From Zoogloea ramigera (GTDB lineage Bacteria; Pseudomonadota; Gammaproteobacteria; Burkholderiales; Rhodocyclaceae): a stretch of 58,222 nucleotides of DNA. The stretch covers positions 1-58,222 of the forward strand of contig NZ_BJNV01000024.1 of assembly GCF_006539865.1 (NCBI RefSeq), written 5' to 3'. Every line of letters starts with the position of its first letter. Position 1 is the stretch's first letter. The position numbers and the translations under genes were made by a program. Below are positions 3,792 through 29,213 of the stretch, in pieces. Below the pieces are notes generated by a model that saw only the letters and a list, made by a program, of their open reading frames with translations, did no database searches and was not told where the DNA came from.

Positions 3792-4001
3792 GAAATGGTG
3801 GTCGATCCGGCGGACAGAAGCCGATGTTGCCTACGTTGGCCGGAACGTGGTGAGTCAAGCGTACGTCCACGGCAAAGCTACAGTATTCTAAAGAAGTTTG
3901 GGCTTCGCCGCGGGCTCTTGTCGGCTGTGAATTGCGCCCTTGTGTGGCGAGCTCTGTTTTGGCGGCTTTTTTTACGATATTTGTTTTCTTTCAGATCTGC
4001 G

Positions 4002-4553: not shown

Positions 4554-4610
4554 GCAGCCCGCCCTCTGGTTGCACTGCAGCGTGAAAGCGGATACGCCCG
4601 ATGTTTCGTA

Positions 4611-4843
4611 TATAATCAATGGATTCCAAAGCTCCGCCAAACCCGGGTTTTTCGGGTCAAGAGGTGCGGAATAGCCCCTCGGGCGGTCGTGCCGGTGTCG
4701 GCAGGCAACTCGGGGAGCAAAGCGGTATCTGCGTTGGACGAGGGAGAACGGCGCGGGTGTCGCGGGGCCTTGACGGCTCCGAAGAGTCCCATCAACCAAG
4801 CGTAAGCGGCCTTACGGGCTAAGACTTCGATCGAAGGGCAACC
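4611..4843 (+). promoter_or_regulatory. sucC 5' leader with -10 box and SD-overlapping hairpins
   Basis: A good -10 box TATAAT lies at 4611-4616; the -35 region (about 4588-4593, GCGGAT) is weak. About 220 bases of G-rich, hairpin-prone sequence follow. Just before the start codon are a perfect 6-bp stem with a 4-base loop (CGTAAG/CTTACG, 4801-4816) and the palindrome CTTCGATCGAAG (4825-4836), whose 3' arm runs into the ribosome binding site GAAGGG (4833-4838). Pairing there would reduce access to the SD. A conserved 'sucC RNA' motif has been described upstream of sucC in some proteobacteria; I cannot confirm this is a member. Confidence 0.45.
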
Positions 4844-6004: not shown

Positions 6005-6015
6005 GGAGTTACCGA

Positions 6016-6909
6016 ATGTCCATTCTGATCAACAAAGACACCAAGGTCATCACCCAGGGCATCACCGGCAAGACCGGTCAGTTCCACACCGAAAAGTGTA
6101 TCGAATACGCAAACGGCAAGAACTGCTTCGTGGCTGGTGTGAACCCCAAGAAGGCCGGCGAGAAGATCCTCGACGTGCCCATCTTCGGTACCGTCAAGGA
6201 AGCCGCTGCTGAAACCGGCGCCACCGTCTCCGTGATCTACGTGCCACCCGCTGGCGCGGCTGCTGCGATCTGGGAAGCCGTCGAGGCCGACCTGGATCTG
6301 GCGATCTGCATCACCGAAGGCATTCCGGTCCGTGACATGCTGGAAGTGCGCAACAAGATGAAGGCCAAGGAAGCTGCTGGCGGCAAGAAGACCCTGCTGC
6401 TCGGCCCGAACTGCCCCGGCCTCATCACCCCCGATGAAATCAAGATCGGCATCATGCCGGGTCACATCCACCGCAAGGGTCGCATCGGCGTGGTTTCCCG
6501 CTCCGGCACCCTGACCTACGAAGCCGTTGCCCAGCTGACCGAAATCGGTCTGGGCCAGTCTTCCGCGGTTGGTATCGGTGGCGACCCGATCAACGGTCTG
6601 AAGCACATCGACGTGATGCGCATGTTCAACGACGATCCGGATACCGACGCGGTCATCATGATCGGCGAAATCGGCGGCCCGGACGAAGCTGAAGCCGCCA
6701 TGTGGTGCAAGGCCAACATGAAGAAGCCGATCGTTGGCTTCATCGCTGGCGTCACCGCTCCGGCCGGCAAGCGCATGGGCCACGCCGGCGCGCTGATCTC
6801 TGGCGGTGCCGACACCGCTGACGCCAAGCTCGCCGTCATGGAAGAGTGTGGCTTCACGGTCACCCGCAACCCGTCCGAAATGGCCAAGCTGCTGAAGGCC
6901 ATGCTGTAA
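6016..6909 (+). CDS. sucD: Succinyl-CoA ligase (ADP-forming) subunit alpha
   Basis: Alpha subunit that binds CoA and carries the phosphohistidine intermediate. 297 aa, full length. It shows the Rossmann CoA-binding start (TQGITGKTGQFHTEKC), GPNCPGLI near 130-137, GRIGVVSRSGTLTYE near 155-169 and the active-site His256 in KRMGHAGALISG. SD AAGGAG lies a few bases upstream of the ATG. It ends 24 bases before a strong terminator, closing the sucCD operon. Confidence 0.97.
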   Translation: MSILINKDTKVITQGITGKTGQFHTEKCIEYANGKNCFVAGVNPKKAGEKILDVPIFGTVKEAAAETGATVSVIYVPPAGAAAAIWEAVEADLDLAICITEGIPVRDMLEVRNKMKAKEAAGGKKTLLLGPNCPGLITPDEIKIGIMPGHIHRKGRIGVVSRSGTLTYEAVAQLTEIGLGQSSAVGIGGDPINGLKHIDVMRMFNDDPDTDAVIMIGEIGGPDEAEAAMWCKANMKKPIVGFIAGVTAPAGKRMGHAGALISGGADTADAKLAVMEECGFTVTRNPSEMAKLLKAML

Positions 6910-6933
6910 CCCGGGCTTCCTGCCTGTTCTGAA

Positions 6934-6973
6934 CCGCGCCTGAGGCGACAGCCTCCGGCGCGGTTTTTATTTT
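6934..6973 (+). terminator. Intrinsic terminator of sucCD
   Basis: Seven-base GC stem CCGCGCC/GGCGCGG (6934-6940 with 6957-6963) with an inner GAGGC/GCCTC pairing, followed by TTTTTATTTT. It sits directly after sucD. Confidence 0.9.
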
Positions 6974-7033
6974 GGGCTTGGCTGGCGCGCTTTGTGCTAC
7001 AGGTTGGGGGTGTCTCTATGAATATTCCCTCCC

Positions 7034-7609
7034 ATGCTCCGAGTGCTGGTTGTCGATTCTTCCCGCGAGCGTGCTGCAGATGTCTGTGCAGCGCTCGCCC
7101 TTGCCGGTCATCAGGTGGCGGCGGTGCTGCCTTCCGCCTTCGAGCTCCCCGCTCAGGTGCTGGCGACCCGGCCGGATGTGATCTTCATCCAGGCCGACTC
7201 CCCCAGCCGCGACACCCTGGAGCACCTGGCCATCATGAACCGCGATTGCCCGCGGCCGGTACTGATGTGCTCGCCCGATTCCGACTCGGGAATGATCCGC
7301 CGTGCGGTAAAGGCTGGCGTGTCGTCGTATGTGATTGATTCAGTGTCGCCGGAGCGTCTCGATGCGCTGGTGGAGGTGGCTGTCGCCCAGTTCGAGGCGT
7401 TTCAAAACTTGCGTGCCGAGCGGGACGACGCAACCCGCAAGCTGTCCGAACGCATCACCATCGACCGTGCCAAGGGCGTGCTGATGAGGGCGCGCGGGCT
7501 CGACGAGGATGGGGCCTACCACGCGCTGCGCAAGTTGGCGATGGAGCGCGGGCGCAAGCTGGCCGACGTGGCGCAGGACGTCATCGAGATGGCCAAGCTG
7601 TTGCTGTGA
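7034..7609 (+). CDS. nasT: ANTAR-domain response regulator, NasT-type antiterminator
   Basis: 191 aa protein with an N-terminal receiver-like domain (1-120; acidic residue Asp8, candidate acceptor Asp48 or Asp55 in PDVIFIQADSPSRD) and a C-terminal ANTAR RNA-binding domain (about 130-188, ERITIDRAKGVLMRARGLDEDGAYH and a C-terminal helix). ANTAR proteins bind paired hexaloop hairpins in nascent mRNA and prevent termination; NasT acts on nitrate-assimilation genes, normally held back by the sensor NasS. The neighbouring leader at 7883-7991 has just such a structure, in front of nrtABC, which supports the call. No NasS-like unexported sensor gene is in the window. Its own transcript should end at the terminator at 7663-7702. 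Confidence 0.88.
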   Translation: MLRVLVVDSSRERAADVCAALALAGHQVAAVLPSAFELPAQVLATRPDVIFIQADSPSRDTLEHLAIMNRDCPRPVLMCSPDSDSGMIRRAVKAGVSSYVIDSVSPERLDALVEVAVAQFEAFQNLRAERDDATRKLSERITIDRAKGVLMRARGLDEDGAYHALRKLAMERGRKLADVAQDVIEMAKLLL

Positions 7610-7662
7610 ATCTGCTTGCTTAGTCCTAAAGGGATAGGGTTTTGCCCGGAGGGCTTCATGTC

Positions 7663-7702
7663 GGGGCGTCGATGCTTGCGTGTCGGCGCCCCGTTTTCCT
7701 TT
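7663..7702 (+). terminator. Intrinsic terminator after nasT
   Basis: A 13-bp stem (7663-7675 with 7680-7692, a few G-T pairs) with loop TTGC, outer sequence GGGGCG/CGCCCC, followed by GTTTTCCTTT. It isolates nasT from the nitrate transporter promoter. Confidence 0.85.
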
Positions 7703-7757
7703 GTATAAGCGGATCTTCGGTGGCCAGGTGCGGGCCTCGCGCCAATCCGGTGCGTGC

Positions 7758-7774
7758 TGCACCGCAGCAGTGCG
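7758..7774. promoter_or_regulatory. Candidate NtrC binding site
   Basis: TGCAC-N7-GTGCG, which differs from the NtrC dyad TGCAC-N7-GTGCA at one base. It lies about 90-100 bp upstream of the sigma-54 promoter at 7861, a usual enhancer distance. An overlapping dyad GGTGC-N5-GCACC (7749-7763) may be part of the same site. Confidence 0.6.
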
Positions 7775-7794
7775 CCATTTGAGGGGGTTTTGCC

Positions 7795-7817
7795 TACCTC
7801 TTTTGAGGTAATTTTTT
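7795..7817 (+). terminator. Small hairpin with T-run upstream of the nrt promoter
   Basis: Perfect TACCTC/GAGGTA stem (7795-7800 with 7805-7810) with loop TTTT, then ATTTTTT. It has the form of a weak intrinsic terminator, between the NtrC-like site and the sigma-54 promoter, and could stop read-through from nasT. Confidence 0.5.
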
Positions 7818-7860
7818 AAGATGAGAAAAATATTCAATTAAATCATGTGCTTGTTGTGCC

Positions 7861-7876
7861 TGGCACACTCCTCGCT
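7861..7876 (+). promoter_or_regulatory. Sigma-54 promoter of nrtABC
   Basis: TGGCACACTCCTCGCT: a full TGGCAC -24 element and a TCGCT -12 element with the required GG-N10-GC spacing. Predicted transcription start near 7887. Together with the NtrC-like dyad upstream it predicts nitrogen-limitation control. Confidence 0.72.
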
Positions 7877-7882
7877 CAAGCT

Positions 7883-7991
7883 TGATCGAGTCGGTCCAAC
7901 GGCGGGCCGGCTTGATCAGGCGATCTCACTTGGACAAGGGCGTCCATCCCCCGCAGGTTTCCTGGCGGGTGATGTGACGCCCGCTTTTTTT
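7883..7991 (+). promoter_or_regulatory. ANTAR-target leader: two hexaloop hairpins plus terminator
   Basis: Hairpin P1: up to 15 paired bases (7883-7897 with 7904-7918) with hexaloop AACGGC at 7898-7903. Hairpin P2: TGGAC/GTCCA (7931-7935 with 7942-7946) with hexaloop AAGGGC at 7936-7941. Both loops have A at position 1 and G at position 4, the hallmark of ANTAR target RNAs. P2 overlaps the 5' arm of a strong terminator: GGGCGTC (7938-7944) pairs with GACGCCC (7976-7982), with inner CCCGC/GCGGG pairing, followed by seven T (7985-7991). P2 and the terminator cannot form together, as in NasT/NasR control. It lies directly before nrtA. If transcription starts near 7887, the lowest four pairs of P1 are not in the RNA. 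Confidence 0.85.
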
Positions 7992-8007
7992 GGATCAGGG
8001 GCAGGCG

Positions 8008-9264
8008 ATGAGCGAGCAATTTGATGACAAGGTTCTTTCCCGCCGCGGCTTTCTGAAAGCCGGGGCGGGCCTGGGAGGGTTGGCTGCGATGAGTACGATG
8101 CTTCCGAGCGGCGGTGCATGGGCGGCCGGTTCCGATAAGCCGGAAATCGAGGAGGTGAAGATCGGCTTCATTCCGCTGACCGATTGCTCGTCCGTGGTGA
8201 TGGCCTCCGTGATGGGCTTCGACAAGAAGTACGGCATCAAGATCACCCCCAGCAAGGAAGCCTCCTGGGCCGGCGTGCGCGACAAGCTGGCCAACGGTGA
8301 GCTCCACGCGGCCCACGTGCTGTATGGCCTCGTCTATGGCCTGCACCTCGGCGTCGGCGGTCCCAAGAAGGACATGGCCGTGCTGATGACCCTCAACAAC
8401 AACGGCCAGGCGATCACCCTGTCGAACGCCCTCAAGGACAAGGGCGCGGTGGATGGCGTCTCGCTGGCCAAGGTTATTGCGAAGAAGGACAAGGAATACA
8501 CCTTCGCCCAGACCTTCCCCACCGGCACCCACGCCATGTGGCTGTATTACTGGCTGGCGGCCCACGGCATCGACCCCTTCCGCGACGTGAAGAACATCGT
8601 GGTGCCGCCCCCGCAGATGGCGGCCAACATGCGTGTCGGCAACATGGACGGCTACTGCGTCGGCGAGCCGTGGAATCAGCGGGCGATCGTCGACAAGATC
8701 GGTTTCACCGCGGTGACCACCCAGGACATCTGGACCGACCATCCGGAAAAGGTGCTCGGCGCCACCGCCGAGTTTGCCGCCAAGTACCCCAACACCGCCC
8801 GGGCGATGATCTGCGCGATTCTCGAGGCTTCCCGCTGGATCGACGCCAGCGCCGCCAATCGCAGCAAGACGGCCGAGACGGTGGCCGCTAAGAGCTTCGT
8901 CAACACCGATGTGGACGTGATCCGCAGCCGCATGATCGGCCAGTACGAAAACGGCCTCGGCAAGAGCTGGTCCGACAAGAACCTGATGAAGTTCTACAAC
9001 GACGGCCAGGTGAACTACCCCTACCTCTCTGACGGCATGTGGTTCCTCACCCAGCACCGCCGCTGGGGCCTGCTCAAGCAGGACGTGGATTACCTGGCGG
9101 TGGCCAAGGCCATCAACCAGACCGAGCTCTACAAGCAGGCCGCCGCGCAGGTGGGCGTGCCGGTGCCGAAGTCCGACTTCCGCACCTCCAGGCTCATCGA
9201 CGGTGTCGTCTGGGACGGCAAGGACCCGAAGAAATACGCCGCCAGCTTCAAGGTTCGCGCCTGA
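8008..9264 (+). CDS. nrtA: Nitrate ABC transporter substrate-binding protein (NrtA family)
   Basis: 418 aa periplasmic binding protein of the NrtA/CmpA/NasS family for nitrate (possibly also nitrite or cyanate) uptake. A Tat-type signal with twin Arg12-Arg13 (SRRGFLKAG) shows export, so this is the transporter protein rather than the cytosolic sensor NasS. Family features: KIGFIPLTDCSSVVMA, FPTGTHAMWLYYWLAAHGIDP, DGYCVGEPWN. The frame is open from a TTG at 7990 inside the terminator T-run; I take the ATG at 8008 preceded by CAGGGGCAGG. First gene of nrtABC, behind a sigma-54/NtrC promoter and a NasT-type leader. Confidence 0.9.
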   Translation: MSEQFDDKVLSRRGFLKAGAGLGGLAAMSTMLPSGGAWAAGSDKPEIEEVKIGFIPLTDCSSVVMASVMGFDKKYGIKITPSKEASWAGVRDKLANGELHAAHVLYGLVYGLHLGVGGPKKDMAVLMTLNNNGQAITLSNALKDKGAVDGVSLAKVIAKKDKEYTFAQTFPTGTHAMWLYYWLAAHGIDPFRDVKNIVVPPPQMAANMRVGNMDGYCVGEPWNQRAIVDKIGFTAVTTQDIWTDHPEKVLGATAEFAAKYPNTARAMICAILEASRWIDASAANRSKTAETVAAKSFVNTDVDVIRSRMIGQYENGLGKSWSDKNLMKFYNDGQVNYPYLSDGMWFLTQHRRWGLLKQDVDYLAVAKAINQTELYKQAAAQVGVPVPKSDFRTSRLIDGVVWDGKDPKKYAASFKVRA

Positions 9265-17915: not shown

Positions 17916-18794
17916 ATGAATCGTTCTCTCGAACATCAGGCGCTGGCCGATCCGGCGGCGCTGGCGCCCGTCGAGGCGTCCACTCGCGGCCTGCCCGCCG
18001 CTGCAGCGCACGCGGCGCGCGTATGCCCGGCCCGGGCCCGCAAGAGCCGCTGGCCGGCGCGGCTCGACCTGCTGCAAAGCGCCTCGGGCCTGTTTCTGGC
18101 GCTGTTTCTCGTCGCGCACATGTTCTTCGTGTCGTCGATCCTGATCAGCCACGACACCTTCTACACCGTCGCCCGCTTCTTCGAGGCCGGCTGGCTGTTC
18201 GGCACGCCGCAGCCGTGGGTCGTGTCGTGTGTGGTGGGTGGTGTGCTGGTGGTCTTCGTGCTCCACGCCTGGCTGGCGATGCGCAAGTTCCCCACCAACT
18301 TCCGCCAGTACAAGGTTTTCGCCGCCCACAAGGCCCAGCTGCGCCATGGCGACACCGGCCTGTGGTGGATCCAGCTGTGGACGGGCTTTGCGCTGTTCTT
18401 CCTCGGTACCGTGCATCTCTACGGCATGCTCACCCAGCCGGCGGCGATCGGCCCCTATGAATCCGCTGACCGCATCTGGACCGGGACCCTGTGGCCGTTG
18501 TATCTGGTCTTGCTGTTCATGGTCGAGGTGCATGGCAGCATCGGCCTCTACCGCCTGGCCCTCAAGTGGGGCTGGCTGGAGGGGCGCGACCCGGCCGCCG
18601 GGCGGCGGCGCCTGCGCATCGTGAAGACCGGCTTCAGCCTGTTCTTCCTGGGGCTCGGCCTGGTGACCCTGCTGGCCTACGTGCAGCTGGGCATCGCCCA
18701 TGCCGACCGGGCTGGCGAGCCGTATGTCCCGGGCGCTGCGCCGGGCGAGGCGGCATCCGGCGTGCAGGCGGCGGTCAGCCTGGGGGGGCGCTGA
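17916..18794 (+). CDS. frdC: Dihaem cytochrome b subunit of quinol:fumarate reductase (FrdC)
   Basis: 292 aa membrane anchor with about five transmembrane helices. It is of the Wolinella succinogenes type: histidines 68, 117, 167 and 206 keep exactly the spacing of the four haem ligands of that protein (44, 93, 143, 182, offset 24). With the same offset Glu90 and Glu204 match the Wolinella glutamates for quinol oxidation (66) and the E-pathway (180). This supports a two-haem enzyme that moves electrons between a quinol and fumarate, or in reverse. The first 45 residues are an extra, proline/alanine-rich cytoplasmic tail. First gene of frdCA-x-B; a clear promoter was not identified in the 260 bases before it. 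Confidence 0.88.
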
Positions 18795-18796
18795 GC

Positions 18797-20776
18797 ATGC
18801 GCATCATCTACACCGATGTCCTGGTGGTCGGCGGCGGGCTGGCGGGTTTGCGGGCGGCGGTGGGCGCCCGGCGCCGCGGCCACGAGGTGATCATCCTCAG
18901 CCTGGTGCCGCCCAAGCGCTCCCACTCGGCGGCGGCCCAGGGCGGCATGCAGGCCAGCCTCGGCAACACCACCAAGGGCGCTGGCGACAACGAGGACGTG
19001 CACTTTGAAGACACCGTGCGCGGCTCCGACTGGGGATGCGATCAGGAGGTGGCGCGGCTTTTCGTCCATGCCGCACCCCAGGCCGTGCGCGAGCTGGCCG
19101 CCTGGGGCGTGCCCTGGAACCGGGTCAAGGCCGGCGAGCATGAGGTGGTCATGGACGGCCAGCGGGTCACCCTCTGCGAGCGGCCCGAGGCCCACGGCCT
19201 GATCGCCGCCCGCGACTTCGGCGGCACCAAGAAGTGGCGCACCTGCTTTGTCTCCGACGGCACCGGCCACGCCATGCTCTACGCGGTGAGCGACCAGGCG
19301 GTGGCCGAATCCATCCCCGTCCATGAGCGTTGCGAGGCCATCGCGCTGATCCACGACGCGGGCCGCTGCCACGGCGCCATCGTGCGCAACCTGGTCACCG
19401 GTGAGCTGTCGGCCTACATCGCCCGCGCCACCTGCATCGCCACCGGCGGCTTCGGGCGGATCTACCGGGTCACGTCGAACGCCGTCATCAACGAGGGCAT
19501 CGGCGCGGCGATTGTCCTCGAGAGCGGTGTGGCCGAACTGGGCAACATGGAGGCGGTGCAGTTTCACCCGACCACCATCGTGCCGGCCGGCATCCTCGTC
19601 ACCGAGGGCTGCCGGGGCGACGGCGGCCTGCTGCGCGACGCCGCCGGCCACCGCTTCATGCCCGACTACGAGCCCGAAAAAAAGGAGCTCGCCTCCCGCG
19701 ATGTGGTGTCGCGCCGCATGGAGGAGCACATCCGCGCCGGCCATGGCGTCAAGGGCCGATTTGGCGAGCACCTGTGGCTGGATATCACCCTGCTCGGCAA
19801 GGCCCACATCGACGGCCGCCTGCGCGAGGTGAAGGAGATCTGCCAGCACTTCCTGGGCATCGACCCCGCGCGTGACCTGATCCCGGTGCGCCCGGCTCAG
19901 CATTATTCGATGGGCGGCATCCGCACCGACGCCGGCGGCCAGTCCACCCGGCTCGCCGGGCTGTTCGCCTGTGGCGAGGCGGCCTGCTGGGATCTCCATG
20001 GTTTCAACCGGCTGGGGGGCAATTCGGTGGCGGAAACCGTGGTGGCGGGCATGATCGTCGGCGAGACGATGGCCGACTTCGTGGAATCCTCCGCGGGTGA
20101 CCTGCAGGTTTCCACCGCCCTCGTGCGGGAGTTCCTCGAACGCGAGCAGGCCCGGATCGACACTCTCCTCCACGGCGACGGCAGCGAGAACGCCGCGGCG
20201 CTGATGGCCCGCATGCAGGAGATCATGACCGACAAGGTGGGCATCTTCCGCCAGGGCGACCTGCTCGAATCCGCCGTCGAGGAGCTGCAGCAACTGCTCG
20301 TCAGGAGCCGCAGTATCGGTATCGCAACCCGACGGCCCGGCGCCAACCCGGAGCTGGTCACCGCCTACCGGGTGCAGAAGATGTTGAAACTCGCCCTCTG
20401 TGTGGCCCATGGCGCGCTCCAGCGCACCGAGAGCCGCGGCGCCCACTACCGCGAAGACCACCCCCGGCGCAACGACGCCGACTGGCTCAAGCGCACCCTG
20501 GCCAGCTGGCCCGACGCTGGCCAGACCCTGCCGACCCTGGCCTACGAGCCCCTCGACGTCACGCGCATGGAGCTGCCCCCCGGCTGGCGCGGCTACGGCG
20601 CGAAGGACGCCATCGCGCACCCGGCCACCGAGGCCCGCGCCGCCGAGATCGCCGCCATCCGGTCAGCCTTCGGCCACGCCGACCGTTATACCTTGCAACA
20701 GGCACTGATGCCCTTCGAGCACCTGGTCCCGGAACCCTTCCGGGGCCGCAACGAAAGGCTGGGAGACACACCGTGA
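18797..20776 (+). CDS. frdA: Fumarate reductase flavoprotein subunit (FrdA)
   Basis: 659 aa catalytic subunit, almost the length of Wolinella FrdA. Dinucleotide loop [12 protein letters not shown] near 9-20, covalent FAD histidine in [12 protein letters not shown], active-site region [23 protein letters not shown], and [14 protein letters not shown] with [20 protein letters not shown] for flavin and substrate binding. Interconverts fumarate and succinate on the cytoplasmic face. It starts 2 bases after the frdC stop, and its stop overlaps the start of the next gene (GTGA). The gene order C-A-B is that of Wolinella; direction in vivo (fumarate respiration or succinate oxidation) is not decided by sequence. 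Confidence 0.92.
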
Positions 20777-21102
20777 ACGCCCCGCTGTCCCACGTCCGCA
20801 CCCTCACCCTGGCGATCGCCGATGAAGGCGGAGCCCAACACGAATTTGAACTCCTCGAGACCGAGGGCATGAGCCTGCTGTGCGCCCTGAAGCAGGTGGG
20901 TGAGGCGCTCCCGCCCCACCTCGGCGAGGCCTTTGTGTGCCACGCGGGCGCCTGCAACACCTGCAGCGTGCTGATCAATGGCCAGCCCGGCGTGCCGTGC
21001 ACCATGTTCGTCCGCGAGCTGGGCAAGCGCATCAGCATCGCCCCTGGCCACCACGCCCAGGGTTGGGATGGCCTGCGCAACGTCGTGCGGGGAGGGCATT
21101 GA
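20773..21102 (+). CDS. Stand-alone [2Fe-2S] FrdB-N-like protein
   Basis: 109 aa protein that resembles only the N-terminal ferredoxin domain of FrdB. Cys56, Cys61, Cys64 and Cys76 form C-x4-C-x2-C-x11-C, the same spacing as in the following FrdB (CRAGICGSCGMLIDGRPGLAC), so it probably binds one [2Fe-2S] cluster. It lacks the second domain with the [4Fe-4S] and [3Fe-4S] clusters. Start is the GTG at 20773 overlapping the frdA stop; it ends at the A of the frdB start. The tight overlaps on both sides mean it is translated with the complex. It could be an extra electron-transfer subunit or an assembly or donor protein; the role is unknown. Confidence 0.85.
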
Positions 21103-21836
21103 TGAGCGCCCCCGGCAAGCCCCGCAGCCTCACGCTGCGCATCCTGCGCAGCGCTCCCGGCGCCCATGTCGAGCCCCAGTGGCAGGATTTCGCCGTCGAG
21201 GAGGCTGAAGGCATGACCCTCTTCATCGCCCTCAACGAGATCCGCCAGAACCTCGACCCCTCGCTGCAGTTCGACTTCGTCTGCCGCGCCGGCATCTGCG
21301 GCAGCTGCGGGATGCTCATCGACGGCCGCCCGGGGCTGGCCTGCCGCACCCTCACCAAAGACCACGGCGCCACCATCACGCTGGCGCCGCTGCCGGTCTT
21401 CGAGCTGATCGGCGACCTCTCGGTGAACACCGGCAAGTGGATGCGCGGCACCGCCGAGCGCCTCGAGACCTGGATCCACCGCCAGCAGGCGCCGGCCCTC
21501 ACGGCCGTAGAGGCGCCGATGGAGCCCGAGCTCGCCGAGGCCATCTACGAACTCGACCGCTGCATCGAGTGCGGCTGCTGCGTGGCCGGCTGCGGCACCC
21601 TGCGGATGCGCGAGGATTTCGTCGGCGCGGTCGGCCTCAACAAGATCGCCCGCTTCCGGCTCGACCCCCGAGACGAACGCAGCGACGAGGATTTCTACAA
21701 CCTGATCGGCGACGACACCGGTGTGTTCGGCTGCATGAGCCTGCTCGGCTGCCACGACGTCTGCCCCAAGGGCCTGCCGCTGCAGACCCAGATCGCCTTT
21801 TTGCGGCGCAAGATGGCGGTGGTCGGCTTCAAATAG
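21102..21836 (+). CDS. frdB: Fumarate reductase iron-sulfur subunit (FrdB)
   Basis: 244 aa three-cluster subunit linking FrdA to the haems of FrdC. N-terminal [2Fe-2S] ligands in CRAGICGSCGML...C; C-terminal domain with CIECGCCVAGC for [4Fe-4S] and CMSLLGCHDVCP for the second cubane-type site, consistent with [3Fe-4S]. Length and motif order are normal. ATG at 21102 is the natural start after the upstream stop (TGATG). A bidirectional terminator follows at 21860. Confidence 0.93.
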   Translation: MSAPGKPRSLTLRILRSAPGAHVEPQWQDFAVEEAEGMTLFIALNEIRQNLDPSLQFDFVCRAGICGSCGMLIDGRPGLACRTLTKDHGATITLAPLPVFELIGDLSVNTGKWMRGTAERLETWIHRQQAPALTAVEAPMEPELAEAIYELDRCIECGCCVAGCGTLRMREDFVGAVGLNKIARFRLDPRDERSDEDFYNLIGDDTGVFGCMSLLGCHDVCPKGLPLQTQIAFLRRKMAVVGFK

Positions 21837-21859: not shown

Positions 21860-21900
21860 AAAAAAGGCCCGGCCCCGCAATGCGGGGTCGGGCCTTTTTA
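21860..21900. terminator. Bidirectional terminator between frdB and the Ack-PduL fusion gene
   Basis: AAAAAAGGCCCGGCCCCGCA on the left pairs with TGCGGGGTCGGGCCTTTTT on the right (one G-T type mismatch), with A- and T-runs on both sides. Serves both convergent operons. Confidence 0.92.
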
Positions 21901-21918: not shown

Positions 21919-24243
21919 TCAGTGGCGCGACTGGATCTCTTCGATGTAACCCAGCATGCCGGTGCGGATGTTGGCGGCGTTGCCCTCGTCGGTGTCGATG
22001 TGCATGGCCAGCCGGTAGGCCGGGTTCACGCGCACCACCACGTCGCCGAAGATCAGCTCGCGCTCGCCCTCGACGCGCACGCGCACGATGTACTTGTCGC
22101 GCACATGGAAGCGCATCGCGTCTTCGGGCGTCATGTGGATGTGACGCTGGGCGCAGATCACGCCGCGCTCGATGGTGGTGCTGCCGAAGGGCCCTTCGAG
22201 GGTGATCCCCGGGGTGTTGGCCAGGTCGCCGGATTCGCGGATCGGCGGCTGGATGCCGACCTTGAACTGCTCGGTCATGGCGATCTCGACCTGGGTTTCC
22301 TTGCGGGTCGGGCCGAGCACGCGGACGTTGGCGATTCGCCCCTTGGGGCCGACCAGGTGCACCTTCTCGGCGCAGGCGAACTGGCCGGGCTGCGACAGCT
22401 CGTGCTCGGGGGTGAGCTGGTGGCCGGGGCCGAAGAGCTTCTCCACGTCGGCCTGGGACAGGTGCACGTGGTGGGCCGAGATCTCGATGGGGATCGAGGC
22501 CTCGGCCGGGTCTTCGCGCACGGCCATGATGAGGGCGTTGCGCTCGATGGCGCGCAGGGCCTCCCACGCCACCAGACGCTCGTCGTCGTTGGCGATGACG
22601 AGGATGGTCACCGGCGAGTCGTCGGCCGAGATGATCGCCCAGTCGCCCATCTTGCCGAGGTTGCGGTTCTTCTCTTCGTCGAGCTTGATGCCCATGTAGC
22701 CGAGGCCCTGGCAGGCCAGGCTGCGCACGGTGGCGCTGGTCTCGCCGATGTCGCCGGTGAAGGCCAGCACGTCGATGCCGCCCATCGCCGCCACGTAGGC
22801 GCCGATGTTCTTGCGCACCTGGTAGCAGAAGGCCTTGTGGGCGAGCAGGGCGCGGTGGTGGCCCTCGTTGGCGGCGGTCTCGATGTCGTGGATGTCGCTG
22901 GAGATCCCGGAGATGCCCTTCAGGCCGCTCTCGCTGTTGATCAGCCGGGAGAGCTCCTCGGTGCTCATGCCGTGGTGTTCCATCAGGTGGATCATCACCG
23001 CCGGGTCGATGCTGCCGGAGCGGCTGGGCATGATCAGGCCGTCGGTGGGCGTCATGCCCATGGTGGTGTCGACCGAGCGGCCGTGGTCGATGGCGCACAG
23101 GGAGGCGCCGATGCCCAGGTGGCAGGAGACGATCTCGAGCTCGCCCAGCGGCCGCTTGAGCACCTCGGCGGCCTTCAGCGACACGTAGCGGTGCGAGCTG
23201 CCGTGGAAGCCGTAGCGGCGGATGCCTTCGTTCTTGTAGAGCTCGTAGGGCAGGCCGTAGAGGTAGGCGTAGGGCGGCAGGGTCTGGTGGAAGGCGGTGT
23301 CGAAGACGGCCACGTGGGGCACGCTCGGCAGGCGCTGCATGGCGATCCGGATGCCTTCGAGGTTCACCGGGTTATGCAGCGGGGCGAACACCGACAGGGC
23401 TTCGATCTCGCCGATCACCTGCGGGGTGATCACCACCGAGCTGGTGAACTTGCTGCCGCCATGCACGACCCGGTGGCCGACCGCGGTGACTTCTTCGGGG
23501 TGGAAGGCGAAGGCGTCGCCCAGCAGACGGGTGGATTCCTGCATCACCTGGAACAGCTCGGTGAGCGGGAAGGCATCGCGCACCAGCGTGCGGCTCTGGG
23601 TGCCCACCATCACCTTGATGTGGGCCGAGGCGGCATCGGAGGTGTCGATGATGCCGTGCACGTCGGAGCCCAGGTCGCGGGTGTCGTAGATGCCGAAGTG
23701 GATCTGGCTGACGCCCACGTTGAGGGCCAGCACCTTGCCCGGGGTGTCGCTGTGCAGCGACAGGGCGTAGGGGTCATCGGCCTTGGCCGGGCCGCCGGTC
23801 TGGGCGTTGAGGATGTCGGTGGCGAGGTGGCGCATGCGGTCGAGCAGCAGCCGCGACAGGTAGGTGACCGCCTTCGGGTTGGTCAGCACATGGGCGCTGA
23901 AGACCTCGTAGGGCATCAGCAGCACGAGGCAGCGGGTGCCGGCGATCACGTCGGCGGACATGCGCTCGCCGGTGAGGGTGGACATCACGCCGAACACGTC
24001 GCCGGTGGCGAGCTGGCTGATCACGGTGCGGGTGCCGGTCTTGTCGGTCACCGAGATTTCTGCGTGGCCGCTGACCAGGACGCCCATGTACTTGCTCTCG
24101 TCGCCGGTCTCGAGGATCGCCTCGTTGCCTTCGAACGTCGTCAGGTGCGACTGGGCGACGATCAGGTCGACCTTGTCGGCGGAGAAGTTTTCGAAGAGGC
24201 GGACTTCTTCGAGGAAGAATTTTTTCAGGTCAACTTCACTCAT
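21919..24243 (-). CDS. cNMP-binding domain - acetate kinase - PduL phosphotransacetylase fusion
   Basis: 774 aa three-part protein. Residues 10-140: Crp-type cyclic-nucleotide-binding fold (VLVSGHAEIS, LATGDVFGVMSTLTGERMSADVIA) without a helix-turn-helix. Residues 170-570: acetate kinase with expected active-site residues Arg258 (GHRVVHGG), Asp315 (DTAFHQTLP), His347 (YGFHGSSH), Arg408 (SRSGSIDP) and Glu501 (TGDIGETS; the usual GIGEN is altered). Residues 583-766: PduL-type phosphate acyltransferase with metal-binding His motifs HHVH (591-594) and RHIH (700-703). One chain could carry acetyl-CoA to acetate with ATP gain, gated by a nucleotide ligand. Start at 24243 (MSEVDLKK); 31 upstream in-frame codons are unsupported. 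Convergent with frdB. Confidence 0.88.
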   Translation of the reverse strand: MSEVDLKKFFLEEVRLFENFSADKVDLIVAQSHLTTFEGNEAILETGDESKYMGVLVSGHAEISVTDKTGTRTVISQLATGDVFGVMSTLTGERMSADVIAGTRCLVLLMPYEVFSAHVLTNPKAVTYLSRLLLDRMRHLATDILNAQTGGPAKADDPYALSLHSDTPGKVLALNVGVSQIHFGIYDTRDLGSDVHGIIDTSDAASAHIKVMVGTQSRTLVRDAFPLTELFQVMQESTRLLGDAFAFHPEEVTAVGHRVVHGGSKFTSSVVITPQVIGEIEALSVFAPLHNPVNLEGIRIAMQRLPSVPHVAVFDTAFHQTLPPYAYLYGLPYELYKNEGIRRYGFHGSSHRYVSLKAAEVLKRPLGELEIVSCHLGIGASLCAIDHGRSVDTTMGMTPTDGLIMPSRSGSIDPAVMIHLMEHHGMSTEELSRLINSESGLKGISGISSDIHDIETAANEGHHRALLAHKAFCYQVRKNIGAYVAAMGGIDVLAFTGDIGETSATVRSLACQGLGYMGIKLDEEKNRNLGKMGDWAIISADDSPVTILVIANDDERLVAWEALRAIERNALIMAVREDPAEASIPIEISAHHVHLSQADVEKLFGPGHQLTPEHELSQPGQFACAEKVHLVGPKGRIANVRVLGPTRKETQVEIAMTEQFKVGIQPPIRESGDLANTPGITLEGPFGSTTIERGVICAQRHIHMTPEDAMRFHVRDKYIVRVRVEGERELIFGDVVVRVNPAYRLAMHIDTDEGNAANIRTGMLGYIEEIQSRH

Positions 24244-24623
24244 GGTCTGACTCGTGTGATGACGGGGTAGCCCGTATTGAAAGCCTATCACTTTGCTGCA
24301 ACGCATCAAAGTGTGGATTGCCCTTAACAACGGCAACTTTCGGTGTGACTGGAGGCCGGCGTTTGTGCGCTGCGTTGGCGGGCGCGGCAGGCATCTGTCG
24401 GGGCCCGGTGGGGGCAGGAGGCGGGCGGCTGACGTGGTCTTGGTGGCCGGTGAAGATATCGGATATTTTTTGCGTTCCGATGGATATCAAAAAAGATCTT
24501 CATTAACAAAAAGATATCGTATAAAATACTTTTCATGGGAGGAGGGTGCCCGAAAGAGAGCAACGCATAGATCGCGATGCCGGCGGCGCCTCATCTGGAT
24601 GGTCACAAAAAAAGGGGGCGGCT
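24244..24623. promoter_or_regulatory. Divergent control region between the Ack-PduL fusion and livH
   Basis: The half next to livH is AT-rich and holds the palindrome TATCGGATA (24457-24465) and a variant TATCGTATA (24515-24523), the latter overlapping a -10-like TATAAA. TATCNGATA recurs twice in the other control region of this cluster (31397 and 31465). A clean -35 box is not seen. No gene is visible in this stretch. Confidence 0.45.
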
Positions 24624-25661
24624 TTGGACGCAGGAATCGTTTTGATACTCGGTCAGGACGGGGTGAGCAGCGGGGCGATCTACGCCCTGCTTGCGCTGGC
24701 CCTGGTGCTGATCTTCTCGGTCACGCGGGTGATCTTCATCCCCCAGGGCGAGTTCGTCGCCTTCGGGGCGCTCACGCTGGCGATGCTGCAGGCGGGCAAG
24801 GTGCCGGCGACGGTGTGGCTGCTGGTGGCGATGGGCGCCGTCGTGGCCGTCGTCGATGGCCTGGCCCGGCTGCGTGACCGGGACACCGAAGGCCTCGGCA
24901 GCCTGCTCGGCTGGAACCTGGCCTACCCGCTGGCGCTGGCGGCGCTGCTCCATGCGGTGGAGTCGGGCGGCCTGCCGATGGCGCTGCAGATTTTGCTGAC
25001 GCTGGCGATCCTGGTGCCGCTCGGGCCGATGATCTACCGCATCGCCTACCAGCCGATCGCCGAGACCAGCGTGCTGGTGCTGCTGATCGCCTCGGTGGCG
25101 GTGCATCTGATCCTCACCGGGCTGGGGCTGGTGTTCTTTGGTGCCGAGGGCGTGCGCACCGCGCCGTTCTCGGAGGGCAGCCTCACTTTCGGCGAGGTGT
25201 CGATCAACCTCCAGACGCTGTGGGTGGTGGGCTGCTCGCTGGCCTTCATCGTCGGGCTGGCGGCCTTCTTCACGCGCAGCCTGTACGGCAAGGCGCTGCG
25301 GGCCACCTCGGTGAACCCCTCTGGCGCCAAGCTGATGGGGATCTCGCCGGTGGTCGCCGGCAAGCTCACCTTTCTGCTGGCGGCGTTGCTGGGGGTGTTC
25401 TCCGGGGTGCTGATCGGGCCGATCACCACCATCTACTACGACACGGGTTTCCTGATCGGGCTGAAGGGCTTCGTCGCGGCGATCATCGGCGGGCTGGCGA
25501 GCTACCCGCTGGCGGCGGCCGGGGCGGTGCTGGTGGGGCTGCTGGAATCGTTCTCGTCGTTCTGGGCCAGCGCCTTTAAAGAGGTGCTGGTGTTCACGCT
25601 GATCATCCCGGTGCTCCTGTGGCGCTCCTTCAACAGTCATCACGTGGAGGATGAAGAATGA
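24624..25661 (+). CDS. livH: Branched-chain-type (aromatic acid) ABC transporter permease, LivH family
   Basis: About 345 aa membrane permease of the LivH family, with about eight hydrophobic segments and the typical opening GQDGVSSGAIYALLALALVLIF and the ARAT-like loop RATSVNPSGAKLMGISP. A non-standard insert of about 40 residues (ARLRDRDTEGLGSLLGW) lies after the second segment. I place the start at TTG 24624, with AAAGGGGG about seven bases before it; a GTG at 24546 would add 26 residues with no similarity. Its stop overlaps the livMG start (ATGA). With the CoA ligase and beta-oxidation genes nearby, aromatic acids are a likelier cargo than leucine. Confidence 0.82.
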   Translation: MDAGIVLILGQDGVSSGAIYALLALALVLIFSVTRVIFIPQGEFVAFGALTLAMLQAGKVPATVWLLVAMGAVVAVVDGLARLRDRDTEGLGSLLGWNLAYPLALAALLHAVESGGLPMALQILLTLAILVPLGPMIYRIAYQPIAETSVLVLLIASVAVHLILTGLGLVFFGAEGVRTAPFSEGSLTFGEVSINLQTLWVVGCSLAFIVGLAAFFTRSLYGKALRATSVNPSGAKLMGISPVVAGKLTFLLAALLGVFSGVLIGPITTIYYDTGFLIGLKGFVAAIIGGLASYPLAAAGAVLVGLLESFSSFWASAFKEVLVFTLIIPVLLWRSFNSHHVEDEE

Positions 25662-27448
25662 AACGCATCGTCCAGTTGTTCGTGCTGGTGCTTGTGCTGG
25701 CCGCCGTGCCGGCGCTGCTGCCGCCGTATTACGTCACCCTGCTCAACTATATCGGGATCTCGGCGCTGGTGGCCGTGGGCCTGGTGCTGCTCACCGGCGT
25801 CGGCGGGCTCACTTCCTTCGGCCAGGCTGCCTTCGTCGGCGTCGGGGCCTACACCACCGCGGTGCTCACCACCTCGACGAGCTTGCCGGGCTGGATCGCC
25901 TGGGCCGGCGCGTCGCCGTGGCTGGCGCTGGTGGCGGGGCTGGTGATCACCGGCCTGATCGCGCTGTTGCTCGGCTCGCTGACGCTCAAGCTGTCAGGCC
26001 ATTACCTGCCGCTGGGCACCATCGCCTGGGGCATCAGCCTGTATTTCCTGTTCGGCACGCTGGACTTCCTGGGCGCCCAGAGCGGCATCTCGGGCCTGCC
26101 GCCGATCACCATCGGCAGCTTCAGCTTCGACGAAGGCGGCGAGATTTATTACCTGATCTGGGCCTTCGTGCTGGCGGCGGTGGTCACCACCCACAACCTG
26201 CTCGATTCCCGCGAGGGGCGGGCGATCCGCGCGCTGAAGGGCGGCGTGGTGATGGCCGAGGCGATGGGCGTGGATACGTCCCGCTCGCGCATCGTGATCT
26301 TCGTGATCGCCGCGTTGCACGCCTGCGCCGCCGGCTGGCTGTATGCCCACATGCAGCGGCTGGTTAACCCGTCGCCCTTCGGGCTGCACCACGGCATCGA
26401 GTATCTGTTCATGGCGGTGGTCGGCGGCGCCGGCTACGTGTGGGGCGCGGTGATCGGCGCGGGCCTGGTGACGCTGCTCAACCAGTGGCTGCAGGATTGG
26501 CTGCCGCGGCTGTTTGGCCACGCCGGCAACTTCGAAATCATCGTGTTCGGGCTGCTCCTGCTGCTCATCCTGCACCGTGCCCGCGAAGGCATGTGGCCGG
26601 CGCTGCTGCGCCTGTTCCGGGTGAAGGCCGAGCCCAAGGTGGTTGTCGAGGGCGCCGCGGCGCTGCCCCGGCGTACGCTGCCGGCGCGGGGCGAGGTGAT
26701 CCTCGAGGTGAAGGACGTGACCCGGCGCTTTGGCGGTCTGGTGGCCAACAAGGACATGAACTTCAGCATGAAGGCCGGCGAGATCCTGGCCCTGATCGGC
26801 CCCAACGGCGCCGGCAAGAGCACCATGTTCAACCAGATCTCCGGCGTCGATACGCCCACCTCCGGCGAGATCGTGTTTGCCGGCCAGGTGGTGACCGGCC
26901 GCGACTCCCGCGAGATCGCCCGCCTCGGCATGAGCCGCAGCTTCCAGCATGTGCGCCTGTTGCCGAAGATGAGCGTGCTCGAGAACGTGGCCATCGGCAC
27001 CCACCTGCGCGGCAGCGGCGGGGTGTTTCCGTCGGCCTGGCGGATGGAGCGCCCGGAGGAAGAGCGCCTGCTCGCCGAAGCCGCGCGGCAGATCCGCCGG
27101 GTCGGGCTGGAGGCCCATATGCACGACGAGGCCGGCTCGCTGGCCCTCGGGCAGCAGCGCATCATCGAGATCGCCCGCGCCCTGGCCGCCGACCCGTCGC
27201 TGCTGCTCCTCGACGAGCCGGCCGCCGGCCTGCGCTTCAAAGAAAAGGAAGCCCTCGCCGAGCTGCTGAAAAAGCTCAAGGCCGAAGGCGTGGCGATCCT
27301 GCTGGTCGAGCACGACATGGACTTCGTGATGGGGCTGGTGGATCGCATCGTGGTGATGGAGTTCGGCCAGAAGATCGCCGAAGGGCTGCCGGAGGAGATC
27401 CAGCAGGACGAGCGGGTGCTGGCGGCTTACCTGGGAGGTGTGGAATGA
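25658..27448 (+). CDS. Fused ABC permease/ATPase (LivM-LivG)
   Basis: 596 aa fusion. Residues 1-320: LivM-type permease with about eight membrane segments and the GLTSFGQAAFVGVGAYTTA motif. Residues 345-595: LivG-type ATPase with Walker A GPNGAGKST (381-389), signature LALGQQR, Walker B LLLLDEPAAGL and H-loop LVEHDMDFVMG. The linker at 320-345 is short. Fusion of LivM and LivG is known in some aromatic-acid transport systems. It overlaps livH at the start and livF at the end by four bases each, so the three genes form one translation unit. Confidence 0.9.
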   Translation: MKRIVQLFVLVLVLAAVPALLPPYYVTLLNYIGISALVAVGLVLLTGVGGLTSFGQAAFVGVGAYTTAVLTTSTSLPGWIAWAGASPWLALVAGLVITGLIALLLGSLTLKLSGHYLPLGTIAWGISLYFLFGTLDFLGAQSGISGLPPITIGSFSFDEGGEIYYLIWAFVLAAVVTTHNLLDSREGRAIRALKGGVVMAEAMGVDTSRSRIVIFVIAALHACAAGWLYAHMQRLVNPSPFGLHHGIEYLFMAVVGGAGYVWGAVIGAGLVTLLNQWLQDWLPRLFGHAGNFEIIVFGLLLLLILHRAREGMWPALLRLFRVKAEPKVVVEGAAALPRRTLPARGEVILEVKDVTRRFGGLVANKDMNFSMKAGEILALIGPNGAGKSTMFNQISGVDTPTSGEIVFAGQVVTGRDSREIARLGMSRSFQHVRLLPKMSVLENVAIGTHLRGSGGVFPSAWRMERPEEERLLAEAARQIRRVGLEAHMHDEAGSLALGQQRIIEIARALAADPSLLLLDEPAAGLRFKEKEALAELLKKLKAEGVAILLVEHDMDFVMGLVDRIVVMEFGQKIAEGLPEEIQQDERVLAAYLGGVE

Positions 27449-28191
27449 GCGCGTTGCTGAAGGTGCAGGACTTGCGGGTGAACTACGGCAAGGTCGAGGC
27501 GATCCACAACATCAGCCTTGAGGTGGGCGCCGGGCAGATCGTCACGGTGATCGGCCCCAACGGCGCCGGCAAGACGACCAGCCTGGCGGCGATCATGGGG
27601 CTGCTGCCGTCCAGCGGGCACATCGACTTCGACGGCCACGTGCAGCGCGCGGCCAACGTGGAGAAGCGGGTCATCCAGGGCCTCGCGCTGGTGCCCGAGA
27701 AGCGCGACCTGTTCGGCGAGATGAGCGTCGAGGACAACCTGCTGCTGGGCGCCTTCCAGCGCTTCCGCAAGGGCCACCGCGACCAGGCGCAGACGATGGA
27801 GGAGGTCTTCGCGCTGTTCCCGCGGCTCGCCGAGCGGCGCAGCCAGGCGGCGGCCACCATGTCGGGCGGCGAGCGCCAGATGCTCGCCATCGGCCGTGCG
27901 CTGATGGGCAAGCCCAAGCTGCTGATGCTCGACGAGCCGAGCCTCGGCCTCGCGCCGCTGATCGTGCGCGAGATCTTCCGCATCATCAGCGGGCTGCGCG
28001 ACCGCGGTGTTTCGATCCTGCTGGTCGAGCAGAACGCCCGCGCCGCGCTGCAGGTGGCCGATTACGCCTACGTGCTCGAGATGGGCGCGGTGGCCATGCA
28101 AGGCCCGGCGCGCGAGCTCGCCGACGACCCGCGGGTGGTCGAAGCCTACCTGGGCCTCGGCAGCAAGCACCAGGCCATGCTGTCCACCTGA
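27445..28191 (+). CDS. livF: ABC transporter ATP-binding protein, LivF family
   Basis: 248 aa second ATPase of the Liv-type importer. Walker A GPNGAGKTT near 35-43, signature TMSGGERQML, Walker B LLMLDEPSLGLAP (the extended LivF form) and H-loop LVEQNARAAL. The start ATG overlaps the livMG stop. The solute-binding protein that would complete the importer is encoded at 31535, after the BoxR-like and acyl-CoA dehydrogenase genes. Confidence 0.92.
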   Translation: MSALLKVQDLRVNYGKVEAIHNISLEVGAGQIVTVIGPNGAGKTTSLAAIMGLLPSSGHIDFDGHVQRAANVEKRVIQGLALVPEKRDLFGEMSVEDNLLLGAFQRFRKGHRDQAQTMEEVFALFPRLAERRSQAAATMSGGERQMLAIGRALMGKPKLLMLDEPSLGLAPLIVREIFRIISGLRDRGVSILLVEQNARAALQVADYAYVLEMGAVAMQGPARELADDPRVVEAYLGLGSKHQAMLST

Positions 28192-28265
28192 AATGCCGGC
28201 CCGGCTTGCCCGCGATCAAGCCGGGCCGCTGCCCCGCATTGGGATATGGCGCGCGGGGCGCTAAA

Positions 28266-29213
28266 ATGCCGCACTTTTCAGACACGACAGGCCACAGCGT
28301 GACAGCGGCGCAGGACGAGCAACAAAACTTAGCGGCGGCGGGCCTCGACGAAGAGTCGGCCCGCCTGCTCGCCACCCTGGCGCGCAACATCCGCCTCTTC
28401 CGCAGCCAGCGCGGCATGACGCGCAAGAACCTGGCCGAGCAGTCGGGCGTCTCGCTGCCGCACCTGGCGCGCCTCGAGAGCTCCCAGGGCAATGTCTCGG
28501 TGGTGGTGCTCGGCAAGGTGGCGCGGGCCCTCAATCAGCCCCTCGCCAACCTGTTCTCCGAAAACGAGCTGCTGTCGGGCGATTTGGCCCTGATCGTCGA
28601 GTTCCTGCGCCAGCAGCCGGCGGCCCGGCTCACCGACATCCGCGAGACGCTGTTCTCCGAGTTTCAGTCGGCGGCCTCGGCCCGCAGCCAGCGCATCGCC
28701 CTCATCGGCCTGCGCGGCGCCGGCAAGAGCACCGTGGGCAAGGCGCTGGCGGTCCGCCTCGGGCGGCCCTTCGTCGAGCTCAACGAGCAGATCGAGCGCG
28801 AGGCCGGCCTCAGCGTGCAGGAGATCATCACCCTCTACGGCCAGGCCGGCTACCGCAAGCTCGAGAAGCGCTGCCTCGAAGAGCTGGCCGTCTCGCAGCC
28901 CGAGGTGGTGCTCGCCACCGGCGGCGGCATCGTCGTCGAGCCGCAAACCTATCAGCTGCTCCTCGGCGCCTTCTACACCGTGTGGCTGCGCGCCGACCCG
29001 GAGGTGCATTTCCGCCGGGTGATGGAGCAGCACGACGCCCGCATCGCCACCCCCAGCCATTACCGCGAGGCGATGGAGAACATCCGCAACACCCTGGCCG
29101 CCCGCGAACACCTCGGCCACATGGCACCGCTGGCCATCGACACCACGCCGCTGACGGTGGACGAGGTGGTGGACAAGATCGTCGAGGGGAGCGGGGCGGC
29201 TGGTCGGGGGTGA
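28266..29213 (+). CDS. boxR: BoxR/BzdR-type regulator (HTH plus shikimate-kinase-like domain)
   Basis: 315 aa regulator. Residues about 48-105: XRE-type helix-turn-helix (RNIRLFRSQRGMTRKNLAEQ, SLPHLARLESSQGNVSV). Residues about 155-300: shikimate-kinase-like domain with P-loop GLRGAGKST. This architecture belongs to BoxR and BzdR, which repress benzoate genes and respond to benzoyl-CoA. Here it sits 75 bases after livF and may be co-transcribed. No box or bzd catabolic gene is in the window. BoxR and BzdR themselves cannot be told apart by eye. The chosen start (28266, MPHFSDTT) follows a long frame extension without similarity. Confidence 0.85.
   Translation: MPHFSDTTGHSVTAAQDEQQNLAAAGLDEESARLLATLARNIRLFRSQRGMTRKNLAEQSGVSLPHLARLESSQGNVSVVVLGKVARALNQPLANLFSENELLSGDLALIVEFLRQQPAARLTDIRETLFSEFQSAASARSQRIALIGLRGAGKSTVGKALAVRLGRPFVELNEQIEREAGLSVQEIITLYGQAGYRKLEKRCLEELAVSQPEVVLATGGGIVVEPQTYQLLLGAFYTVWLRADPEVHFRRVMEQHDARIATPSHYREAMENIRNTLAAREHLGHMAPLAIDTTPLTVDEVVDKIVEGSGAAGRG

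Follow-up and report, generated by a model that had tools for sequence, protein, structure and literature searches.

Acetate kinase (Ack) is a textbook ATP-forming enzyme. As to the acceptor of its phosphoryl group, PMC4390882 and PMC5517563 name one established exception, the Entamoeba enzyme. In the Methanosarcina thermophila enzyme (MtACK), whose residue numbers are used throughout, Asn211 contacts the β-phosphate, Gly331 contacts the α- and β-phosphates, Arg285 lies planar to the adenine, and the PHOSPHATE1 segment has Ser10, Ser12 and Lys14 as hallmark residues, which are important for activity (PMC4390882). The phosphotransacylase PduL (PF06130) binds zinc through His48, His50, Glu109, His157, His159 and His204, and its Arg103 contacts phosphate (PMC4784909). 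Here we describe a gene that joins a Crp-type domain, an Ack domain and a PduL domain in one chain, at positions 21919–24243 (minus strand) of a 58,222-nucleotide (nt) stretch of Zoogloea ramigera DNA (contig NZ_BJNV01000024.1; the window). Residue patterns and the promoter suggest that this fusion is likely a phosphotransacetylase of the polyhydroxybutyrate (PHB) regulon with a rebuilt, non-canonical acetyl-phosphate site.

The gene is a single open reading frame (ORF) of 774 amino acids (aa) with an ATG start, stop codon included in the coordinates. Pfam finds three domains in it, all above the cut-off and in the order cNMP_binding, Acetate_kinase, PTAC. The Crp-type cNMP_binding domain covers residues 36–117 (23893–24138, minus strand; E 5.9e-16), the acetate-kinase domain residues 170–559 (22567–23736, minus strand; E 2.8e-130) and the PduL domain residues 585–759 (21967–22491, minus strand; E 2.3e-78). 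The kinase match to PF00871 scores 434.9 bits against a cut-off of 22 and spans profile positions 1–391 of 392. NCBIfam concurs, with ackA at residues 170–565 and phosphate propanoyltransferase at residues 584–764, both above cut-off. A preliminary description of this DNA had proposed these three domains in one chain without a DNA-binding part; the domain calls bear it out, and Pfam up to E 1 finds no helix-turn-helix or other DNA-binding domain in the fusion.

The architecture is widespread in the family. At least 26 of 150 family genomes, that of Z. ramigera counted, carry the fusion, and they fall into 15 of 68 genus groups. These counts cover the matches listed, weak end excluded; the 27 full-length copies, the window's included, are at least 67% identical, and no in-frame stop lies within their matches. 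The Z. ramigera genome itself holds one fusion, one PduL domain and a second AckA. A survey of the class (369 genomes, Z. ramigera included) yielded 12 matches with E ≤1e-95 besides, none of them full-length. They are Ack alone or Ack-PduL proteins that lack the first domain, and one of the 12 (L030) reaches the contig end before that domain.

A scan of named loci with the PduL part as query extended the range to other phyla. Among the best 80 of 570 relatives, 29 loci encode all three domains, 18 encode Ack-PduL and 33 encode PduL alone. The profiles used for these calls were derived from the fusions and may overlook a remote first domain. The 29 three-domain loci comprise 19 of Rhodocyclales type (Zoogloea, Azonexus, Dechloromonas, Rhodocyclus, Sulfurisoma and loosely named metagenome-assembled genomes (MAGs)) and 10 from the Planctomycetota, Verrucomicrobiota, Myxococcota (‘Deltaproteobacteria’), Nitrospirota and Aminicenantes. 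This named set partly overlaps the family set. The 18 two-domain loci, including those of Polaromonas and of Paracoccus plasmids, share the Ack-PduL order but differ in that a Crp-type domain was not found and the ATP site is mostly canonical in the tabulated ones. Among these 18, L072 is split, L082 ends at a contig end and L055 is partial; the open frame of this deltaproteobacterial locus (7353–8573) holds only the end of the Ack domain and PduL, possibly through a frameshift. Rhodocyclus purpureus (L052) carries two three-domain fusions in tandem (3600–6098 and 6102–8573), both with Asp at Asn7.

Because the same fusion recurs in family genomes and in other phyla, it is not the product of a joining error. 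A sequencing or assembly artefact that fused separate genes, which the preliminary description had named as a possible refutation, is refuted by these independent genomes and has practically no probability left. The ratio of nonsynonymous to synonymous substitution rates (dN/dS) is likewise below 1 for every domain in all eight pairs tested. Searches of the open-licence PMC literature showed no publication on such a fusion, and the passages of PMC4207490 examined make no mention of one.

The kinase site is altered in the Rhodocyclales fusions. Residues were tabulated in 36 distinct Rhodocyclales sequences (40 rows, four identical ones merged), in 10 other three-domain proteins, and in a comparison set of 30 two-domain or single sequences, with gaps omitted. 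The numbering was checked on the 1tuu alignment (from residue 62) and agrees with PMC4390882; PHOSPHATE1 residues were placed by motif. Like ATP-dependent AckA (MtACK, PF00871), the fusion shows the fold family, the length and Arg91, His123, Asp148, His180 and Arg241, which, together with Val93, Phe179, His208 and Pro232, are retained in all 36 Rhodocyclales sequences; Leu122 (34/36) and Asn7 (33/36) are nearly always retained. It differs from ATP-dependent AckA in its two extra domains and in the substitution of PHOSPHATE1, PHOSPHATE2, LOOP3, LOOP4 and ADENOSINE residues. Ser10, Ser12, Lys14, Asn211, Gly239, Gly331, Asn335 and Glu384 are retained in none of the 36 sequences, Thr240 in one and Arg285 in two. 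We take Glu384 and Thr240 to be part of the ATP or metal site. Many substitutes are themselves uniform: Gln12 (36/36), His14, Asp331 and Asp384 (35/36 each) and His285 (33/36), with Ile, Val or Ala at Asn211 and Pro, Ala or Ser at Gly239 in every sequence. The window protein (P0001) has Val, Gln, His, Ile, Pro, Asp and Asp at Ser10, Ser12, Lys14, Asn211, Gly239, Gly331 and Glu384, respectively. A deep-branching Rhodocyclaceae fusion from MAG SKW65 (L050, 6195–8573) has Arg, not Asp, at Gly331.

The comparison set keeps the canonical residue almost throughout: Ser12, Lys14 and Gly239 in 30/30, Ser10, Thr240 and Arg285 in 29/30, Gly331 and Glu384 in 29/29, Asn211 in 26/30 and Asn335 in 25/29. 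The three-domain proteins of other phyla have the same architecture, the same SAHH signature (see below) and the closest position in the tree, but they differ from the Rhodocyclales fusions in that all 10 retain Gly239, Gly331 and Glu384 as well as the Glu of the Crp-type pocket. They also retain Ser12 and Lys14 (9/9 each), Arg285 (8/10) and Ser10 (7/9), and keep Asn211 and Asn335 in only 6/10 and 3/10, so that changes at these last two positions are not specific to the Rhodocyclales clade. In two Nitrospirota proteins, L062 (Magnetobacterium, 6231–8579) and L064 (Magnetominusculus, 6234–8582), Gly9 of PHOSPHATE1 is Arg and Asn211 is His; these proteins apparently altered their ATP site (Ser10, Asn211) independently. 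Across the whole domain, 108 columns are conserved in other acetate kinases (a comparison set of 40 rows). The Rhodocyclales fusions retain 84 of them at ≥90% and substitute 16, which include most of the examined ATP-site positions. The preliminary description had judged the active sites of both enzymes intact, which is true of the PduL metal ligands and fails for the kinase.

It had also taken the protein for a normal ATP-forming acetate kinase, joined to PduL and switched by a cyclic nucleotide. In favour of this, solved acetate and propionate kinases match the Ack domain strongly (E down to 4.5e-102), 84 of the 108 conserved columns are retained, and altering single loop positions of MtACK leaves some ATP activity (PMC4390882). 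Here, however, ten ATP-site positions are altered together in 34 to 36 of the 36 sequences, and the pocket Arg that a cyclic-nucleotide switch would call for is missing in all 46 three-domain sequences. We therefore consider ATP formation under cyclic-nucleotide control improbable. Use of another nucleotide, or hydrolysis of acetyl phosphate with water as acceptor, is more doubtful again: MtACK changes at Gly239 and Gly331 do shift nucleotide preference (PMC4390882), but the joint loss of Asn211, Ser10, Ser12, Lys14 and Arg285 (34/36) goes beyond a shift in base preference.

A rebuilt site of this kind has a partial parallel in the Entamoeba histolytica enzyme, which is pyrophosphate (PPi)-dependent and is altered in the same loops, with Gln at Gly331 (PMC5517563). 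Like it, the fusion departs from ATP-dependent enzymes at Asn211, Gly239, Gly331 and Asn335; Ser10, Ser12, Lys14 and Glu384 are also substituted in the fusion, positions at which the Entamoeba residues were not compared. Some Anaerolineaceae acetate kinases, whose acceptor is not known, carry Asp at Gly331 (PMC5517563), as do 35 of the 36 Rhodocyclales fusions, the other having Arg. With the ATP site rebuilt, ordinary phosphate transfer to ADP would be lost, while the Ack fold would still bind acetyl phosphate or acetate, as the retained residues suggest. We conjecture that the site remains catalytic and uses a phosphoryl acceptor other than ADP, the first candidate being phosphate, with PPi as product.

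The chief alternative is that the Ack domain is a pseudokinase, which would bind acetyl phosphate as a sensor or lid for PduL and leave ATP formation to the separate AckA. The pattern of substituted ATP-site loops beside retained acetate and catalytic residues suits such a role, and the canonical AckA in the same genome could supply the activity. The changes at Ser10 and Asn211 in L062 and L064 look as if kinase activity mattered less in the three-domain architecture, and PduL is the domain most identical to P0001 in 24 of 25 comparisons; only the truncated row L058 departs from this. Set against this are the retention of Arg91, His123, Asp148, His180 and Arg241 in 36/36, perhaps more than mere binding needs, the like-for-like replacement of Glu384 by Asp in 35/36, and the near invariance of several substitutes (Gln12, His14, Asp331). 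We rate the pseudokinase as somewhat unlikely. The sequence suits both transfer to another acceptor and sensing of acetyl phosphate, and placing phosphate first among the acceptors is our choice.

Like PduL (PMC4784909), the PduL domain of the fusion has the zinc ligands and the phosphate-contacting Arg: His592, His594, Glu653, His701, His703, His748 and Arg647, placed by motif, are invariant in an alignment of 20 of the 27 family copies. Unlike typical PduL, it forms the C-terminal domain of a fusion and reads SAHH instead of SARH. Where encapsulated PduL has an N-terminal helix (PMC4784909), the Ack domain precedes PduL in the fusion. All tabulated three-domain proteins have SAHH, as do two partial frames (L055 and the first copy in L020); other PduLs have SARH, SNRH or SVRH. 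The metal and phosphate ligands suggest that the domain is active as a phosphotransacetylase, which would interconvert acetyl-CoA plus phosphate and acetyl phosphate plus CoA.

The promoter suggests a link to carbon storage. A palindrome, CACTTTGCTGC-AAC-GCATCAAAGTG, lies at 24289–24313 (no strand assigned), 46–70 nt upstream of the start codon. It resembles the motif of the PHB regulator PhbF, TG[N]TGC[N]3GCAA, and that of Rhodobacter sphaeroides PhaR, CTGC[N]3GCAG (PMC3206438, PMC12542648); the window site reads TGATGCGTTGCAG, and its final base deviates from the TG[N]TGC[N]3GCAA-type motif. We built a weight matrix from 15 fusion promoters of other genomes, in which the sites were chosen by eye, and scored each training promoter with itself left out. 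The window site scores 29.1, the runner-up among 58,204 window positions 16.1. The window included, 17 of 21 Rhodocyclales promoters score at least 16.9 and 14 of these at least 20, with sites beginning ∼60–75 nt upstream of the start. The promoter of L058, never used in training, scores 31.8. No operator-like site was found by matrix scoring in the promoters of the 10 other-phyla three-domain genes.

The same element occurs at phasin genes. Upstream of the domain match, three of six phasin loci in the Z. ramigera genome have sites with scores of 20.0 to 27.6, and two of these loci have two sites each. An exact search of the genome for TGNTGCNNNGCAACAA, a stricter half-site pattern, gave eight sites compared with none in a reversed control, and two of the eight lie directly upstream of phasin genes. 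A search allowing up to two mismatches gave 10 operator-like sites and one in the reversed control. Of the nine sites away from the fusion, neighbours were named by eye for two: one site is next to a PrkA-like gene, and the other lies between an lpxC-like and an ftsZ-like gene. The genome also has a PhaR-type gene (PF05233). PHB control of the acetate pathway has a precedent in Bradyrhizobium, where expression of pta and of two ackA paralogues rises strongly in a phaR mutant (PMC10888616). We therefore annotate the palindrome (CACTTTGCTGC-N3-GCATCAAAGTG) as a putative PhbF/PhaR-type operator, to which PhaR would be predicted to bind. When PHB accumulates, a PhbF/PhaR-type repressor would leave the operator and the fusion gene would be expressed. 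The preliminary description had suggested second-messenger control of overflow or anaerobic acetate formation; the PHB-type operator makes a link to acetyl-CoA overflow likelier, and the cyclic-nucleotide part of that proposal finds no support.

The pocket of the first domain speaks against a cyclic nucleotide. We take a Glu and an Arg to be the key residues that define the phosphate-binding cassette of Crp-type domains, and took their positions from an alignment with the putative cAMP-binding protein 7pza, in which the PRSA segment of 7pza stands opposite RMSA of the fusion. In the window protein, Met95 occupies the canonical position of the phosphate-binding Arg and Val86 that of the Glu. 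The Arg is present in none of 46 distinct three-domain sequences (36 Rhodocyclales and 10 others); the Glu is present in 10/10 of the others and in 8/36 Rhodocyclales, being missing in 28/36. A cyclic nucleotide is therefore an unlikely ligand. The Crp-type domain may instead respond to some other kind of ligand, or to contact with a protein, and so regulate the enzyme.

Taken as a whole, a PHB-regulon PduL fusion whose Ack site is catalytic with a non-ATP acceptor and whose regulation does not involve a cyclic nucleotide is our preferred explanation, held tentatively and a little short of an even chance. Its most specific form, a PPi-forming acetate kinase joined to PduL that would turn acetyl-CoA and two phosphates into acetate, CoA and PPi, turned on during PHB storage and tuned by its Crp-type domain through a ligand other than a cyclic nucleotide, is unlikely. 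Several points weigh against the preferred explanation. The retained acyl-site residues suit a mere acetyl-phosphate sensor equally well. PHOSPHATE1 residues make no direct ATP contact in MtACK crystals, and MtACK variants at Asn211, Gly239 or Gly331 are 6- to 200-fold less active and still use ATP (PMC4390882). Asn211 and Asn335 are unreliable marks, given their loss in other three-domain proteins, and Asp at Gly331 is not obviously an advantage for an anionic acceptor. Unlike Entamoeba-type enzymes, the fusion has neither an extended PHOSPHATE2 loop with an extra Gly (HLGIGAS is of canonical length) nor the preceding Asp that marks PPi-type acetate kinases (PMC5517563). PPi economy was considered as support and rejected: H+-pyrophosphatase (H+-PPase) occurs in 17 of 26 fusion genomes and 21 of 29 others, unrelated to the fusion, and in none of four genomes of the genus. 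As to the operator, it is weak or missing in 4 of the 21 Rhodocyclales promoters; L049 and L051 have only a weak form (14.8), and no operator-like site was found in the L047 promoter, where the start is uncertain, or at the second tandem copy in L052, the first copy having one. The other three phasin loci show no site (best 7.9), and the best score at the PhaR locus, 10.2, lies ∼1.1 kb before the matched domain.

Phylogenetic analysis indicates how the altered site may have arisen. In a quick tree of 65 Ack domains, the 25 Rhodocyclales rows form one clade with a Shimodaira–Hasegawa-like approximate likelihood ratio test (SH-aLRT) support of 100 and a stem of 1.07 changes per column. A careful tree, built from 55 rows after masking of the trait columns, gives the Rhodocyclales clade (15 rows) support of 100/100 and a stem of 0.86, and joins it at 100/96 to four three-domain proteins of the Planctomycetota and Verrucomicrobiota. 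In these unrooted trees, all three-domain proteins form one group with only moderate support (SH-aLRT 86 in the quick tree; 80/81 in the careful tree). A Zoogloea MAG locus (L035) is almost identical in the tree to L004, from a genome of the same genus. On the simplest reading, the architecture would have arisen first with an ordinary ATP site, and that site would then have been rebuilt a single time on the branch leading to the Rhodocyclales. Within the clade, the Ack domain has a dN/dS of 0.11 to 0.21 in seven of eight pairs, and of 0.44 between the window and L004.

The Z. ramigera genome contains other acetate-pathway genes. A PTA_PTB-type protein (PF01515, 145 bits), judged by eye to be probably a MaoC-PTA, adjoins the canonical AckA, and there are two further PTA frames of malic-enzyme size. 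The preliminary description had noted that PduL normally belongs to microcompartments or replaces Pta. Neither origin is supported for this genome: no bacterial microcompartment (BMC) shell protein (PF00936) matches in it, two of 14 control genomes giving a match, and compensation for Pta loss was rejected on account of the PTA_PTB-type gene beside AckA. No Pta above the NCBIfam cut-off was found in the Z. ramigera genome; 2 of 26 fusion genomes have one, compared with 6 of 29 others. In two fusion genomes that belong to one genus, a Pta above the cut-off lies ∼11 kb from the fusion gene (G067:C1:719168-720094 and G115:C1:1048113-1049039). Since an ordinary acetate route is apparently already present, the fusion would be a second system with a different task, and the canonical AckA beside a PTA_PTB-type gene would leave it free to differ.

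The surroundings of the gene are less conserved than the gene itself. Among 18 named loci and the window, no cluster occurs in more than 5 of 19 except the fusion and frames overlapping it; the five loci with common neighbours carry sulfite-reductase-type, DUF934 and PAPS-reductase genes, their Pfam names coming from L041 only. In the window, a 19-nt inverted repeat with A/T runs at 21861–21899 (no strand assigned), likely a bidirectional terminator, sits between the fusion gene and a convergent SdhB-like gene. The convergent block at 17916–21836 (plus strand) encodes an Sdh-type cytochrome b, a fumarate reductase/succinate dehydrogenase flavoprotein, a separate small 2Fe-2S protein and the SdhB-like protein. 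On the other side, 24546–29213 (plus strand) holds branched-chain-type ABC transporter genes, one of them tested with Pfam, followed by a helix-turn-helix and shikimate-kinase protein, which we take to resemble the benzoate regulator BoxR.

The Rhodocyclales fusions form a clade in which a coherently rebuilt and since maintained ATP site stands together with a phosphotransacetylase and a putative carbon-storage operator, a clean system for the question of the phosphoryl acceptor in acetate kinases. If the preferred explanation is true, metabolic models of Zoogloea, Dechloromonas and their relatives should not score such genes as acetate kinases that yield ATP.

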